The notes beneath the pieces were generated by a model that had not been told where the DNA came from, ran no database searches, and was given only the letters and a program-made list of their open reading frames with translations. This document shows positions 31,793 to 38,669 of a stretch of 64,000 nt of DNA, piece after piece (the first letter of the stretch is position 1; every line of letters starts with the position of its first letter). Position numbers and translations under genes: made by a program. This DNA is from Dyadobacter chenhuakuii (GTDB lineage Bacteria; Bacteroidota; Bacteroidia; Cytophagales; Spirosomataceae), in NCBI RefSeq assembly GCF_023821985.2, contig NZ_CP098805.1:4708501-4772500 (forward strand), given 5' to 3'.

Positions 31793-34700
31793 ATGGCTAT
31801 AAAAGTTGCTATTTCTCATAAAACCAAATACCAGTTTGACCGGAGCGTTTCCCTTTCACCGCACATTTTCCGACTTCGCCCCGCACCGCATTCCCGGACA
31901 GCCATTGAAGGTTATTCATTAAAAATTACCCCCGAAAATCATTTTATCAACTGGCAGCAGGATCCCTTCGGCAATTATCAGGCGCGGGTTGTTTTTCCTG
32001 AAAAAACGACTGAATTAAGCGTGGAAGTGGAAGTGATCGCTAAAATGCAGGTGATCAATCCGTTCGATTTTTTTGTGGAAGAATACGCGGAAATGTATCC
32101 TTTTGCCTATGAACCGACATTAAAAAAGGAACTTGGCCCTTATCTCGAACCGAGAGAGGCGAGTCCGGCGCTGATGGAATGGGTTGAGAAGGCGAAAGTG
32201 AACCGTGATATCAAGATCGTGGATTTTCTGGTGCACCTTAATCAGCAGATTTACAATGCGATACATTATAACATTCGCATGGAAGTGGGCGTCCAGACTT
32301 GCGAAGAAACATTGAACATTAAAAGCGGTTCCTGCCGGGATTCGGCGTGGTTACTGGTCCAGATTCTGAGACATTTGGGCATTGCGTCTCGTTTTGTTTC
32401 GGGTTATCTGGTGCAGCTGACTTCGGACATTAAGTCATTGGACGGTCCGAGTGGCCCGGAAGAGGATTTTACGGATCTGCACGCGTGGACGGAGGCTTAT
32501 GTGCCGGGTGCTGGCTGGATTGGCCTCGACCCTACTTCCGGACTGTTCGCCAGCGAAGGCCACATTCCGCTTTGCTGCACGCCCGATTATGCGAGTGCTG
32601 CGCCGGTTTCGGGTGCGACGGACATTTGTGAAGTGACTTTTGAATTTGATAATAAAGTTTTCCGGATCCACGAAGATCCGCGAGTTACCAAGCCTTATAC
32701 AGAGGAACAATGGGCAGCGGTGATGCAGGTGGGTCACGATGTAGAAAAGGATTTGCAGGAAGGTGACGTGCGCCTGACGATGGGCGGCGAGCCAACATTC
32801 ATTTCGATCGACGATTTCGAATCGCCGGAATGGAACACGGCTGCGGACGGACCATTGAAAAGACAACTGGCCTATGACCTTTCATTAAGGCTTAAAAAAC
32901 GCTTCGCGCATGGCGGATTGCTGCATTTTGGTCAGGGCAAATGGTATCCCGGCGAGCCTTTTCCAAGATGGCAATATGCGCTTTACTGGCGCAATGACGG
33001 CGTTCCGATGTGGCGCAATGATGATCTTGTCACCAAAGAGGGCCAGACCAAATACACATTCCGCGAAGCTGAAATCTTCACAACCGAACTTACAAAATAT
33101 CTTGGTTTAGACACCAACAACATTACGCCAGCTTACGAGGACCCGATTTACTGGGCGATGGAAGAGGGGAAATTGCCGGTGAATGTGGATCCTTTGAAAG
33201 TAAACCTCAAAGACTCTATTGAAAGAAGAACACTGGCAAAATTGCTCGAAAAGGGCCTTAATAACCCAGCTGGCTTTGTTTTACCTATTAAATGGAATGA
33301 AAAAGGACAGCATTGGTCGAGCTCAGCCTGGCAATTTAAGCGCAACCATTGTTTCCTTGTGCCCGGAAATTCGGCGATCGGTTTCCGTTTGCCGCTGAAA
33401 TCCTTGCCCGAAGTTGCCAAAGCGCATCGCGAGCAGCCGGTGGAACGCAGTCCGTTTGAAGATTTGCCGCCGCTGATCGATTTCAAGCCGGTTGTAGAGT
33501 CGCGTTATGGGTCGGTGGCGCCTCCTTATGAGCTGCCTGTGAATGCGATTTTTGAAGAGGAGGGGGATGATAAGAAACCATTAACCGAAAAAGAGGCGGA
33601 AGATAAGCTTCTTTTTGAGCTTCCGATTATCAAAACGGCGCTTTGCGTTGAGGAACGGGAGGGAATCATTTATGTATATCTGCCTCCGACGGATTATCTC
33701 GAACATTATCTGGACTTGATGGCGTCCATAGAAGCCACGGCGGAAAAGCTGAAAATGCCCGTCCGGATCGAAGGTTATGCTGCGCCAACCGATGCACGGG
33801 TTCAAAAACTAATTGTTACGCCTGACCCCGGGGTGATAGAAGTGAACATTCACCCGGCCAAAAACTGGCAGGAACTCGTTGATAATGTGAGTGCGCTGTA
33901 TGAAGAGGCCTTCTTTTCAAGATTAGGCACAGATAAATTTATGGTTGACGGACGCCACACCGGAACCGGCGGCGGTAACCACGTGACCATTGGCGGTGCA
34001 AAACCTGCCGACAGCCCCATTCTGCGCCGGCCCGATCTGCTGAGGAGCTTGCTGACTTACTGGCAGCATCACCCTGCATTAAGTTACCTTTTTGCAGGAC
34101 CATTCATTGGCCCTACAAGCCAGGCGCCGCGCATTGACGAAGGCCGGGACGAGAAGCTTTATGAAGTTGAAATTGCATTTGAACAAATTCCCGAAGGAGA
34201 AGAAGTGCCATTCTGGATGGTTGACCGCGTTTTCAGGAACTTGCTGGTGGACATTACGGGCAATACGCACCGTTCGGAATTCTGCATGGATAAGCTTTAT
34301 TCACCTGATTCCGCAACGGGACAACTCGGGATTCTGGAATTCCGCGCGTTCGATATGCCGCCGCACAAGCATATGAATCTCGTCCAAACATTGCTTGTAA
34401 GGGCGTTGATTGCGAAGTTTTGGAAAAACCCTTATAAGCACAAGCTCATCCGTTGGGGAACGGAACTTCACGACCGTTTCCTGCTGCCGCATTTTGCTTA
34501 CCTGGATATGGTGGATGTGGTAAAGGATTTGAAAGATGCGGGCTATAACTTCGATATTTCCTGGTTTGACCCATTCTTTGAGTTCCGTTTTCCGCATTAT
34601 GGCGGCATTACAGTGGACAACATTCAGCTCGATCTGCGACTGGGCATCGAGCCCTGGCATGTTTTGGGAGAAGAATTGTCCAACAGCGGCACTGCCCGTT

Positions 34701-35218
34701 TTGTGGACTCTTCGCTGGAACGCTTGCAGGTGAAAGTGAGCGGATTTGTAGAAGGAAGGCACATTCTGGTTTGCAATGGCTGCCGCGTTCCGCTGCGCAG
34801 TTCGGGGATTAAGGGTGAGTTTGTTTCGGGAATTCGATACAAAGCCTGGAACCCGCCATCGGCATTGCACCCGACGATCGGGGCCGATGCGCCGCTCGTT
34901 TTTGACATTGTGGATACCTGGAATAACCGTATATTGGGCGGTTGTACTTACTTTGTTTCACATCCGGGAGGCCGTGCTTTTGATACTTATCCGGTGAACA
35001 GTTTTGAAGCAGAATCACGTAAAATAAGCTTGTTTCAGGGTTTTGGGCATACGCCATCTGCCAAGCAGGAAGTGCCTATTCTGGAAAAATCGACGGGTGC
35101 GGTGTCACGTTTTATTGCTGAGACGAAGAAAGAGATGAAGAGCGACACGCCGATCGAATTAATTAATCCGGAGTATCCGAATACGCTGGATTTACGTAAA
35201 TACTGGAAATCAAAATAG
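31793..35218 (+). CDS. Transglutaminase-like protein fused to DUF2126
   Basis: A 1141-residue two-part protein. Residues 1-270 are a bacterial transglutaminase-like cysteine protease/amidase domain with a Bact_transglu_N head and the triad Cys181 (SGSCRDSAWLL), His230 (DLHAWTEAY) and Asp246 (GLDPTSG). From about residue 310 the DUF2126 domain begins (DVRLTMGGEPTFISIDD, LLHFGQGKWYPGEPFPRW); published comparative analysis relates it to glutamine-synthetase-like COOH-NH2 ligases. It contains conserved segments GRHTGTGGGNHVTIGG and DITGNTHRSEFCMDKLYSPDSATGQLG. It is the first gene of a three-gene operon. No signal peptide, so cytoplasmic. Substrate unknown. Confidence 0.9.
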   Translation: MAIKVAISHKTKYQFDRSVSLSPHIFRLRPAPHSRTAIEGYSLKITPENHFINWQQDPFGNYQARVVFPEKTTELSVEVEVIAKMQVINPFDFFVEEYAEMYPFAYEPTLKKELGPYLEPREASPALMEWVEKAKVNRDIKIVDFLVHLNQQIYNAIHYNIRMEVGVQTCEETLNIKSGSCRDSAWLLVQILRHLGIASRFVSGYLVQLTSDIKSLDGPSGPEEDFTDLHAWTEAYVPGAGWIGLDPTSGLFASEGHIPLCCTPDYASAAPVSGATDICEVTFEFDNKVFRIHEDPRVTKPYTEEQWAAVMQVGHDVEKDLQEGDVRLTMGGEPTFISIDDFESPEWNTAADGPLKRQLAYDLSLRLKKRFAHGGLLHFGQGKWYPGEPFPRWQYALYWRNDGVPMWRNDDLVTKEGQTKYTFREAEIFTTELTKYLGLDTNNITPAYEDPIYWAMEEGKLPVNVDPLKVNLKDSIERRTLAKLLEKGLNNPAGFVLPIKWNEKGQHWSSSAWQFKRNHCFLVPGNSAIGFRLPLKSLPEVAKAHREQPVERSPFEDLPPLIDFKPVVESRYGSVAPPYELPVNAIFEEEGDDKKPLTEKEAEDKLLFELPIIKTALCVEEREGIIYVYLPPTDYLEHYLDLMASIEATAEKLKMPVRIEGYAAPTDARVQKLIVTPDPGVIEVNIHPAKNWQELVDNVSALYEEAFFSRLGTDKFMVDGRHTGTGGGNHVTIGGAKPADSPILRRPDLLRSLLTYWQHHPALSYLFAGPFIGPTSQAPRIDEGRDEKLYEVEIAFEQIPEGEEVPFWMVDRVFRNLLVDITGNTHRSEFCMDKLYSPDSATGQLGILEFRAFDMPPHKHMNLVQTLLVRALIAKFWKNPYKHKLIRWGTELHDRFLLPHFAYLDMVDVVKDLKDAGYNFDISWFDPFFEFRFPHYGGITVDNIQLDLRLGIEPWHVLGEELSNSGTARFVDSSLERLQVKVSGFVEGRHILVCNGCRVPLRSSGIKGEFVSGIRYKAWNPPSALHPTIGADAPLVFDIVDTWNNRILGGCTYFVSHPGGRAFDTYPVNSFEAESRKISLFQGFGHTPSAKQEVPILEKSTGAVSRFIAETKKEMKSDTPIELINPEYPNTLDLRKYWKSK

Positions 35219-37804: not shown

Positions 37805-38669
37805 GCTGATTCACAAAACGGAATATAAATACGCGGAGGCGGTCAATAATTATCATAGTCTGGTGTGCCTCGCGCCGCGCTCGCTGCCGAATCAGCTGTG
37901 CCAGAATTTCGACATTCAAATTTCCCCCGAACCTTCGCAGATCATCGACCGGAAGGATTTTTACGGAAATACAACCCATTATTTCTCCCTGCATTCCCCG
38001 CACAAAACGCTTACCGTACTCACAACAGCCATGGTGGAGCGGCTTACCGAGGAAACCGGGTCTTTGTTTTTGCCCTCCGAAATCTCCTGCGAAGCAGCCC
38101 GTCAGCAACTTCTGGGCGACCGGGCGCTGAAAATTTCGCTGCTGGAATACATGCTGCCGAGCCCTATGATCAAATGGGATCAGGAGGTGCGGAATTTTGC
38201 AAAAGATTGTTTTCAGGAAGGAATGCCGCTATATGCTTGTGTGGAAGCGCTTTGCGCCAAGATTTTCCATGAATTCGATTTTGTTCCGGATTTTACAACC
38301 GTGCATACGCCTATTAAGGATGTTATTGCAGCTAAAAAGGGTGTTTGCCAGGATTTTTCGCATCTGGCCATTGCCTGCATCCGGAGTTTCGGCTTTGCTG
38401 CACGCTATGTGAGCGGCTATCTGGAAACGCTGCCGCCGCCCGGAAAGCAGAAATTACAAGGCTCGGATGCGTCGCATGCCTGGATCTCGGTGTACATTCC
38501 CGACTTCGGCTGGTGCGATTTTGACCCGACCAATAACATTGTTCCCGGTGAACGGCACATTGTCACTGCCTGGGGCCGCGATTACAGCGACGTGCCACCA
38601 TTGAAGGGCATCATTTTCAGTTATGGAAAACACACGCTGAAAGTGGAAGTGGATGTAATTCCCGTGTGA
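37794..38669 (+). CDS. Transglutaminase-like cysteine peptidase (second)
   Basis: A 291-residue protein whose start lies 11 bp inside the preceding gene, a strong sign of translational coupling. It has a Bact_transglu_N head (about 1-80) and a transglutaminase core with Cys185 (KKGVCQDFSHLAIAC), His228 (SDASHAWISVY) and Asp244 (CDFDPTNN), then HIVTAWGRDYSDVPPLKG. This triad is for cleavage or transfer at an amide bond. Together with the ATP-grasp and DUF2126 ligases it suggests a make-and-break cycle for a peptide or peptide tag. Cytoplasmic by lack of a signal peptide. Confidence 0.9.
   Translation: MKYKLIHKTEYKYAEAVNNYHSLVCLAPRSLPNQLCQNFDIQISPEPSQIIDRKDFYGNTTHYFSLHSPHKTLTVLTTAMVERLTEETGSLFLPSEISCEAARQQLLGDRALKISLLEYMLPSPMIKWDQEVRNFAKDCFQEGMPLYACVEALCAKIFHEFDFVPDFTTVHTPIKDVIAAKKGVCQDFSHLAIACIRSFGFAARYVSGYLETLPPPGKQKLQGSDASHAWISVYIPDFGWCDFDPTNNIVPGERHIVTAWGRDYSDVPPLKGIIFSYGKHTLKVEVDVIPV

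Follow-up and report, generated by a model that had tools for sequence, protein, structure and literature searches.

What could a bacterium make, and unmake, with three consecutive genes that join two predicted ligase folds to two predicted amidases? The question is posed by an operon of Dyadobacter chenhuakuii that lies in a stretch of 64,000 nucleotides (the window, C1:4708501-4772500, with C1 the contig; the genome comprises 6.08 Mb in two contigs). We call its genes TGD (transglutaminase (TG) plus DUF2126), AGE (ATP-grasp plus Alpha-E) and TG2 (the second transglutaminase). The reading we prefer, which we consider evenly balanced between right and wrong, is that these genes encode the accessory half of a system, in two parts, for making and breaking amides, with TGD as a ligase/amidase resembling glutamine synthetase (GS), AGE as a remodelled protein, TG2 as an amidase, and a small peptide amide as the compound that would be recycled.

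The operon and its predicted system

The open reading frames (ORFs), the 30-bp gap between TGD and AGE (35219-35248), the 11-bp overlap of AGE with TG2 (37794-37804) and the Pfam domains bear out the original prediction of three consecutive, tightly spaced genes (Table 1). TGD matches Bact_transglu_N, Transglut_core and DUF2126 (1299 bits), AGE matches CP_ATPgrasp_2 (486 bits), CP_ATPgrasp_1 and Alpha-E (183 bits), and TG2 matches Bact_transglu_N and Transglut_core. These scores are too high for chance; NCBIfam assigned no family to any of the three proteins. The operon is a member of the predicted TG/Alpha-E/ATP-grasp/DUF2126 system, which is found in several phyla and was reportedly predicted by Iyer and colleagues in 2009 by comparative genomics. 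The earlier assignment to a known predicted amide ligase/amidase system thus stands: all four domain families lie in one operon, including a circularly permuted (CP) ATP-grasp with Alpha-E, a Bact_transglu_N TG with the full Cys-His-Asp triad and a TG-DUF2126 fusion, and the genes are linked across lineages. The operon appears to differ from the predicted system in that it lacks an Anbu gene, its ATP-grasp is fused to Alpha-E, and a second TG follows directly behind.

Table 1. Domains and motifs of the three operon genes, in window coordinates
Feature	Position	Strand	Details	Basis
TGD, transglutaminase domain fused to DUF2126	31793..35218	+	1141 aa	ORF list, Pfam
Bact_transglu_N of TGD	31808..32038	+	residues 6-82	Pfam
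Transglut_core of TGD	32228..32533	+	residues 146-247; triad C181, H230, D246	Pfam
DUF2126 of TGD, predicted glutamine-synthetase-like carboxylate-amine ligase fold	32621..35197	+	residues 277-1135	Pfam, model
AGE, circularly permuted ATP-grasp fused to Alpha-E	35249..37804	+	851 aa	ORF list, Pfam
CP_ATPgrasp_2 of AGE	35504..36631	+	residues 86-461	Pfam
Presumed metal-site segment of AGE, ExN replaced	35750..35791	+	residues 168-181	Alignment with stand-alone clade
Loop of AGE after K379, GGxG absent	36383..36424	+	residues 379-392	Alignment with stand-alone clade
Alpha-E domain of AGE	36773..37741	+	residues 509-831	Pfam
First WxGRxxER motif of Alpha-E	36803..36826	+	AGE residues 519-526	Alignment
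Second G[RK]xxER motif of Alpha-E	37289..37306	+	AGE residues 681-686	Alignment
TG2, stand-alone transglutaminase-like protein	37794..38669	+	291 aa	ORF list, Pfam

The claim that all visible catalytic residues are intact holds for the TGs and fails for the ATP-grasp of AGE, which has neither the ExN motif nor the glycine-rich loop. The triad of TGD is invariant in 99/99 aligned sequences (96 distinct), and that of TG2 (C185/H228/D244) in 79/79 (75 distinct). Among the 77 distinct AGE cases with at least 900 bp visible, 75 have a TG next on the same strand, and the two genes overlap by 11 bp in 35 of those cases and by 4 bp in 19 (starts were set mechanically). The overlap makes it probable that TG2, a predicted amidase, is co-translated with AGE.

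Two predicted ligase domains

The DUF2126 model (residues 277-1141; 65 of the 81 available sequences used) has a mean pLDDT of 71. Among the 50 Foldseek rows shown of 534, all are glutamine synthetases, YbdK-type ligases, related synthetases or Dop; the best E is 6.5e-3, none of the 50 is below 0.001, and Dop stands at rank 8 with E 0.04. VIA-align places glutamine synthetase at the top (Z 8.4, rmsd 5.5, 255 aligned) and has a GS fold in 47 of the 50 rows shown, the other three being isoamylase over residues 655-801 only. These matches point, with moderate strength, to a fold of the GS/GCS carboxylate-amine ligase superfamily and to that extent agree with the reportedly published reading of DUF2126 as a GS-like ligase. 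The domain would share its predicted fold with GCS2/YbdK, gamma-glutamylmethylamide synthetase and Dop, but it is larger, fused to a TG and without a significant sequence match to them; no convincing solved relative was found by sequence. There are 198 invariant columns among 65 aligned DUF2126 sequences. They could not be mapped onto glutamine synthetase or GCS2, and hhalign was not significant (best segment an EFR-type stretch, E 0.064); a control comparison of GCS2 with GS was likewise not significant, so this is a weak test, and its sets came from a longest-ORF rule that gave an ORF in 11/21 GCS2 and 9/18 GS loci, individually unchecked.

The second ligase fold is of a different kind. We aligned the ATP-grasp domains of 71 fused and 41 stand-alone sequences, leaving 68 and 41 after removal of identical rows. 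The ExN motif is present in 41/41 stand-alone sequences versus 0/68 fused ones, and the same counts hold for the glycine-rich loop GGxG; every stand-alone sequence has the segment E169-D-N171-x-R173 and, as its loop, GGYG. We take ExN to be the metal site and the loop to be the phosphate loop after the E. coli GspS structure, reportedly that of Pai et al. 2006 and our source for the ATP-site residues; residues 318, 330, 332 and 533 of the E. coli GspS sequence are D, E, N and K. Before identical rows were removed, the fused clade had R174 in 71/71 and Q176 in 69/71 sequences, and at position 379 it had K in 67 of the 71 and R in the other 4. Fifty-eight positions are conserved with the same residue in both clades, and 27 that the stand-alone clade conserves vary freely in the fused one. 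At ten more, both clades are at least 95% conserved with differing residues (including N171>R174, R173>Q176 and D326>N331), and because of these the remodelling looks like selected change rather than decay.

A quick tree of 72 thinned ATP-grasp sequences separates the fused from the stand-alone clade by one branch with an SH-aLRT of 100; one of its end branches is long, and two of its rows have an odd make-up. PDB 3n6x, the sole convincing relative of solved structure to be found, lies near the stand-alone clade (E 3.7e-235) and far from AGE (E 9.3e-85, residues 20-486). Judged by its sequence, the AGE domain belongs to a separate clade and is probably a remodelled, non-catalytic partner rather than a standard ATP-grasp ligase. 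The original prediction of two intact ligases side by side therefore fails, as the fused ATP-grasp is in the motif-less clade and the intact copy is a stand-alone gene at C1:3234432-3235553. Loss of ATP-binding residues from both ligases, named there as grounds for rejection, was found in one of the two domains. The Pfam description of this family reportedly distinguishes active versions from inactive ones and gives the latter as frequent Alpha-E fusions; motif loss in the fused form is thus probably already known, and our count supports it, though a literature search returned nothing on inactive versions of this ATP-grasp. With a GS-like fold at moderate strength in DUF2126 and lost motifs in AGE, DUF2126 is the likelier ligase of the operon.

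Alternatively, AGE could be an active ligase with a changed nucleotide site and a new substrate. It retains K379, D289/D290, R436, R441, K479 and D480, and R174, Q176, E241, N331, S471 and Q473 are newly conserved in its clade, as might be expected of a working site, but we regard this as unlikely given that both motifs are missing from all 68 fused sequences.

The Alpha-E portion of AGE offers a structural clue. In the first of its two motifs, W, the first R and the last R are conserved in 53/53 sequences, G in 40/53 and E in 51/53; in the second, G and E are conserved in 53/53, R or K in 47/53 and the last R in 43/53. The model (53 of the 71 available sequences, 41 fused and 12 stand-alone) has a pLDDT of 84.9 and is nearly all helix. 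Profiles of the two halves align by hhalign over 141 columns with E 5.5e-10 and a score of 62.8, against at most 20.4 in 30 column shuffles; reversed controls gave E 0.14 and 0.28 between halves and 0.0077 and 0.015 for a half against its own reverse. Stand-alone sequences by themselves give E 1.3e-15, and the 41 fused ones E 0.0014, barely beyond the own-reverse controls, a weakness that may be expected if the fused domains have diverged. Alpha-E thus appears to be a tandem duplication of helical units of about 150 residues, of which we found no earlier description in a limited literature search that excluded Iyer et al. 2009. We claim no fold relatives: the best Foldseek match has E 0.2, and a VIA match to cytochrome bd (Z 10.8, rmsd 6.4, 248 aligned) lies within the helical background.

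A bolder form of our preferred reading, which we offer only tentatively, would make AGE a selected pseudo-ligase whose rebuilt nucleotide site and duplicated Alpha-E clamp sense or gate the stand-alone ATP-grasp and TGD. Three ligase folds and several amidases would then act as one assembly that makes and recycles a peptide amide.

Linkage, partner genes and neighbours

The operon genes are linked but modular. We surveyed 150 genomes of the window's family, 395 genomes drawn from its phylum, and a genome-collection set made up of the best 80 of at least 559 DUF2126 relatives, in which distant lineages are under-sampled because only the best 80 were taken. DUF2126 occurs in 52 of the 150 family genomes, 17 of them from the window's genus, and in 12/395 phylum genomes. 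No genome of this genus is among the listed family genomes without DUF2126 (78 rows stand beyond those listed). CP_ATPgrasp_2, in any form, is found in 145/150 family genomes, and at least two matches are found in 47 of the 52 with DUF2126, where the second is a fused AGE in those of the 47 that were listed or inspected. The five DUF2126 genomes with a single match are G013 (82% complete) and G019, G021, G045 and G059; in each of the last four, DUF2126 comes with an Anbu-like gene, and ATP-grasp and Alpha-E are encoded separately. Ten of the 98 family genomes without a DUF2126 match also hold at least two CP_ATPgrasp_2 matches; an AGE search recovered the fused gene in each of them, although G128 has it as pieces and a contig end truncates it in G133, and a TG lies behind AGE in all ten neighbourhoods. 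G128, G133, G117 and G092 are drafts, 81 to 92% complete. A full stand-alone ATP-grasp is listed in 55 of the 57 family genomes with at least two matches; in the exceptions it is in pieces (G014) or the second match falls outside those listed (G138).

Twenty family neighbourhoods were chosen, of which 17 were usable (one TGD was cut by the extracted stretch and two had short flanks): 12 have the strict order TGD-AGE-TG2, four are of the Anbu type, and in one, unread bases break TGD into two frames ahead of AGE and TG2. In the collection set, 29/80 loci are cut by contig ends. Among the 51 usable loci, 26 have the strict order and 16 have AGE and TG2 nearby but reordered; the other nine are unlinked within reach, one having AGE without TG2, one separate ATP-grasp and Alpha-E genes, and seven no ATP-grasp. 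In the draft locus L056, a run of unread bases interrupts TGD and leaves it in two frames; AGE and TG2 come next, along with ATP-grasp and Alpha-E as separate genes. From the 80 loci we picked 33 genomes to cover other lineages and odd arrangements, and 32 of them have an ATP-grasp match in an AGE-sized frame (833-898 aa; a criterion of size only, of which Alpha-E is not part), including all seven lone-TGD picks and the separate-gene pick. These 32 hold a full stand-alone ATP-grasp in 29 cases, a fragment in two and none in one; the 33rd (L158) has a stand-alone ATP-grasp only. Conservation of the three genes as a unit, as originally predicted, is therefore partial: the strict order and the TG behind AGE support it, and the fused gene in family genomes without DUF2126 does not.

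In addition to the stand-alone ATP-grasp, and away from it, the window's genome has an Alpha-E/TG pair as well as another TG near C1:3.655 Mb. With these families also encoded elsewhere, the operon is the second set of them in the cell.

No Anbu gene lies beside the operon, and the absence seems to extend to the whole genome, where the sole match to PF00227 (proteasome family) is HslV, an NCBIfam equivalog. The model is weak for Anbu-like proteins, those of five other loci scoring 24.5 to 37.3 bits against a cut-off of 22.4; since all five pass, a similar Anbu should have been detected. The Anbu identity of these 245-258-aa proteins was read from size, N-terminus, the weak PF00227 match and gene context. 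The operon is thus not an Anbu operon in the strict sense. Peptidase_Mx has no match in the window's genome, and occurs in 19/150 family genomes, in two of them (G046, G126) beside TGD. The window's family hinted that TG2 and Anbu exclude each other, an idea that we rejected because Methylococcaceae loci hold both. In these loci (e.g. L128:13505-14818), citrate synthase lies between TGD and AGE together with an Anbu-like gene, and some have a further TG or a ParA-like gene downstream.

The original prediction had proposed a search for a constantly associated small ORF or peptidase. Among neighbours of at least 90 aa within 10 kb of 101 DUF2126 loci from 35 lineages (labels assigned by eye, no background control), Anbu recurs close by in six lineages and Peptidase_Mx in five, and no gene is constant. 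Other clusters, a response regulator (eight lineages), an RND-type protein (four) and seven clusters of three lineages each, look generic. This result bears on a further alternative, in which the ligases would tag proteins with an amino acid or a short peptide and the TGs would take the tag off again, like pupylation and depupylation. Such tagging has been predicted by comparative genomics, as cited in excerpts of PMC6376114 and PMC5666114, and the depupylase Dop is among the DUF2126 Foldseek rows. We nevertheless find it doubtful, because no tag gene appeared among those neighbours (smaller ORFs lay outside the search), where only ATP-grasp, TG, Anbu and Peptidase_Mx recur specifically, and because neither peptidase was found in the window's genome, leaving no dedicated protease partner apparent.

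Some neighbours have roles in the metabolism of glutamate or carbon: citrate synthase in Methylococcaceae, ProC (pyrroline-5-carboxylate reductase) in Dyadobacter, and, flanking the Gallionella locus L160, glutamate dehydrogenase (8249-9541) and glutaminase (13355-14269). None recurs widely, and they are suggestive only. The Gallionella flanks and the intact TG triads would fit a nitrogen-salvage operon in which amide hydrolysis by the TGs is central and the ligase domains are substrate-binding relics, as would the nitrogen-limitation control of relatives: the excerpts consulted describe an NtrC-dependent cluster of Burkholderia cenocepacia (I35_5080-83: DUF404/407, DUF403, a TG and a large TG protein; PMC5491218) and Pseudomonas putida PP_2685-2688 (PMC7801951). 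We consider such an operon very improbable, because a domain with as many invariant columns as DUF2126 is unlike a relic and the stand-alone ATP-grasp keeps its motifs.

Around the operon, the chromosomal place looks stable, since in 12/12 Dyadobacter-type loci checked TG2 is succeeded, on its own strand, by a 326-341-aa gene with transketolase-type domains (our label is PdhB-like) and a DksA-like gene. The nearest DUF2126 locus among the best 80 is that of Dyadobacter alkalitolerans DSM 23607 (99% identity, query residues 1-1141). The start codon region of TGD is kept across 11 aligned Dyadobacter loci, as is an AT-rich block about 60-90 bp upstream (window 31705-31733) that is promoter-like by eye. 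Divergent genes upstream (29698-31479) encode ProC, also near DUF2126 in loci L052 and L120, and a 2-oxoadipate dioxygenase-family protein. A 94-aa ORF (29412-29696) resembles a ParE/RelE-type toxin by eye, and an AbiEii-like nucleotidyltransferase with a 91-aa ORF in front (40354-41257) is possibly a toxin-antitoxin pair. A single scan for viral carriage matched its pattern in 32 stretches, none of them a relative.

Proposed function and relation to known systems

E. coli Gss, the glutathionylspermidine synthetase/amidase, opposes a cysteine amidase to an ATP-dependent amide ligase on one bond. We propose a similar logic for the operon, although its amidase and ligase are of other families and its proteins have no match to PF03738 (GSP_synth) at E 0.001. 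The window's genome does have a PF03738 match (C1:5319490-5320620), one of three among 61 phylum genomes searched. In our preferred reading, TGD would be a single chain with two opposed activities: a GS-like ligase that activates a carboxylate with ATP and joins it to an amine, and a cysteine amidase that cuts or transfers the same kind of bond. AGE, probably non-catalytic, may bind and position the substrate, or else work with the intact stand-alone ATP-grasp from the other locus, with the TG2 amidase presumably coupled to AGE. The likeliest product would be a small peptide or amide of non-ribosomal origin, made and then recycled much like glutathionylspermidine; the nitrogen-limitation response of related proteobacterial genes (PMC5491218, PMC7801951) is counted in favour of this reading too.

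Several points weigh against this proposal. The structural match of DUF2126 to GS is weak (best E 6.5e-3; Z 8.4) and found no counterpart at the level of sequence. Our mapping of the ATP site uses motifs of GspS, and an hhalign comparison between the ATP-grasp and GSP_synth fell short of significance in a weak test of five GSP_synth rows, one of them (L167) a wrongly picked ORF. A one-residue shift in the AGE metal segment is possible, although ExN is absent either way, and because K379, D290 and other shared residues are kept, AGE may have residual ATP binding or altered catalysis. TGD can do without AGE, since G019, G021, G045 and G059 (with Anbu-like genes), and likewise L158/G573, carry DUF2126 with a single stand-alone ATP-grasp and no fused AGE. 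Co-occurrence of the stand-alone ATP-grasp with AGE proves little when nearly all family genomes have CP_ATPgrasp_2, and nitrogen regulation is reported for proteobacteria only in the excerpts of PMC5491218 and PMC7801951.

Anbu operons of Yersinia bercovieri and Pseudomonas, as described in parts of PMC6376114 and PMC5666114, share the ATP-grasp, Alpha-E and TG families with the Dyadobacter operon, but have separate ATP-grasp and Alpha-E genes, an Anbu gene and no DUF2126 named in those parts. The four Anbu-type genomes of the window's family combine an Anbu-like gene with DUF2126 and separate genes. In the Yersinia operon, the ATP-grasp is reported to free phosphate from ATP and Anbu to be without peptidase activity (excerpt of PMC6376114), and the Anbu operon genes are stated to be dispensable without stress (excerpt of PMC5666114). 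No product is named in the portions of the literature consulted. A search by the name DUF2126 returned nothing, and one for alpha-E domain-containing protein returned Klebsiella phosphoproteins only. A DUF403 match in PMC3710099 is a different, longer DUF number, and PMC12096838 and PMC12239564, from the parts seen, concern another system, of membrane-bound inactive transglutaminases.

The residue and linkage results point to TGD, not AGE, as the first protein to test, and the genes for joint study are the operon, the stand-alone ATP-grasp and the Alpha-E/TG pair elsewhere in the genome. The Alpha-E duplication is a structural clue to possible substrate binding at two similar sites, and a Bacteroidota host without Anbu may give a simpler background.

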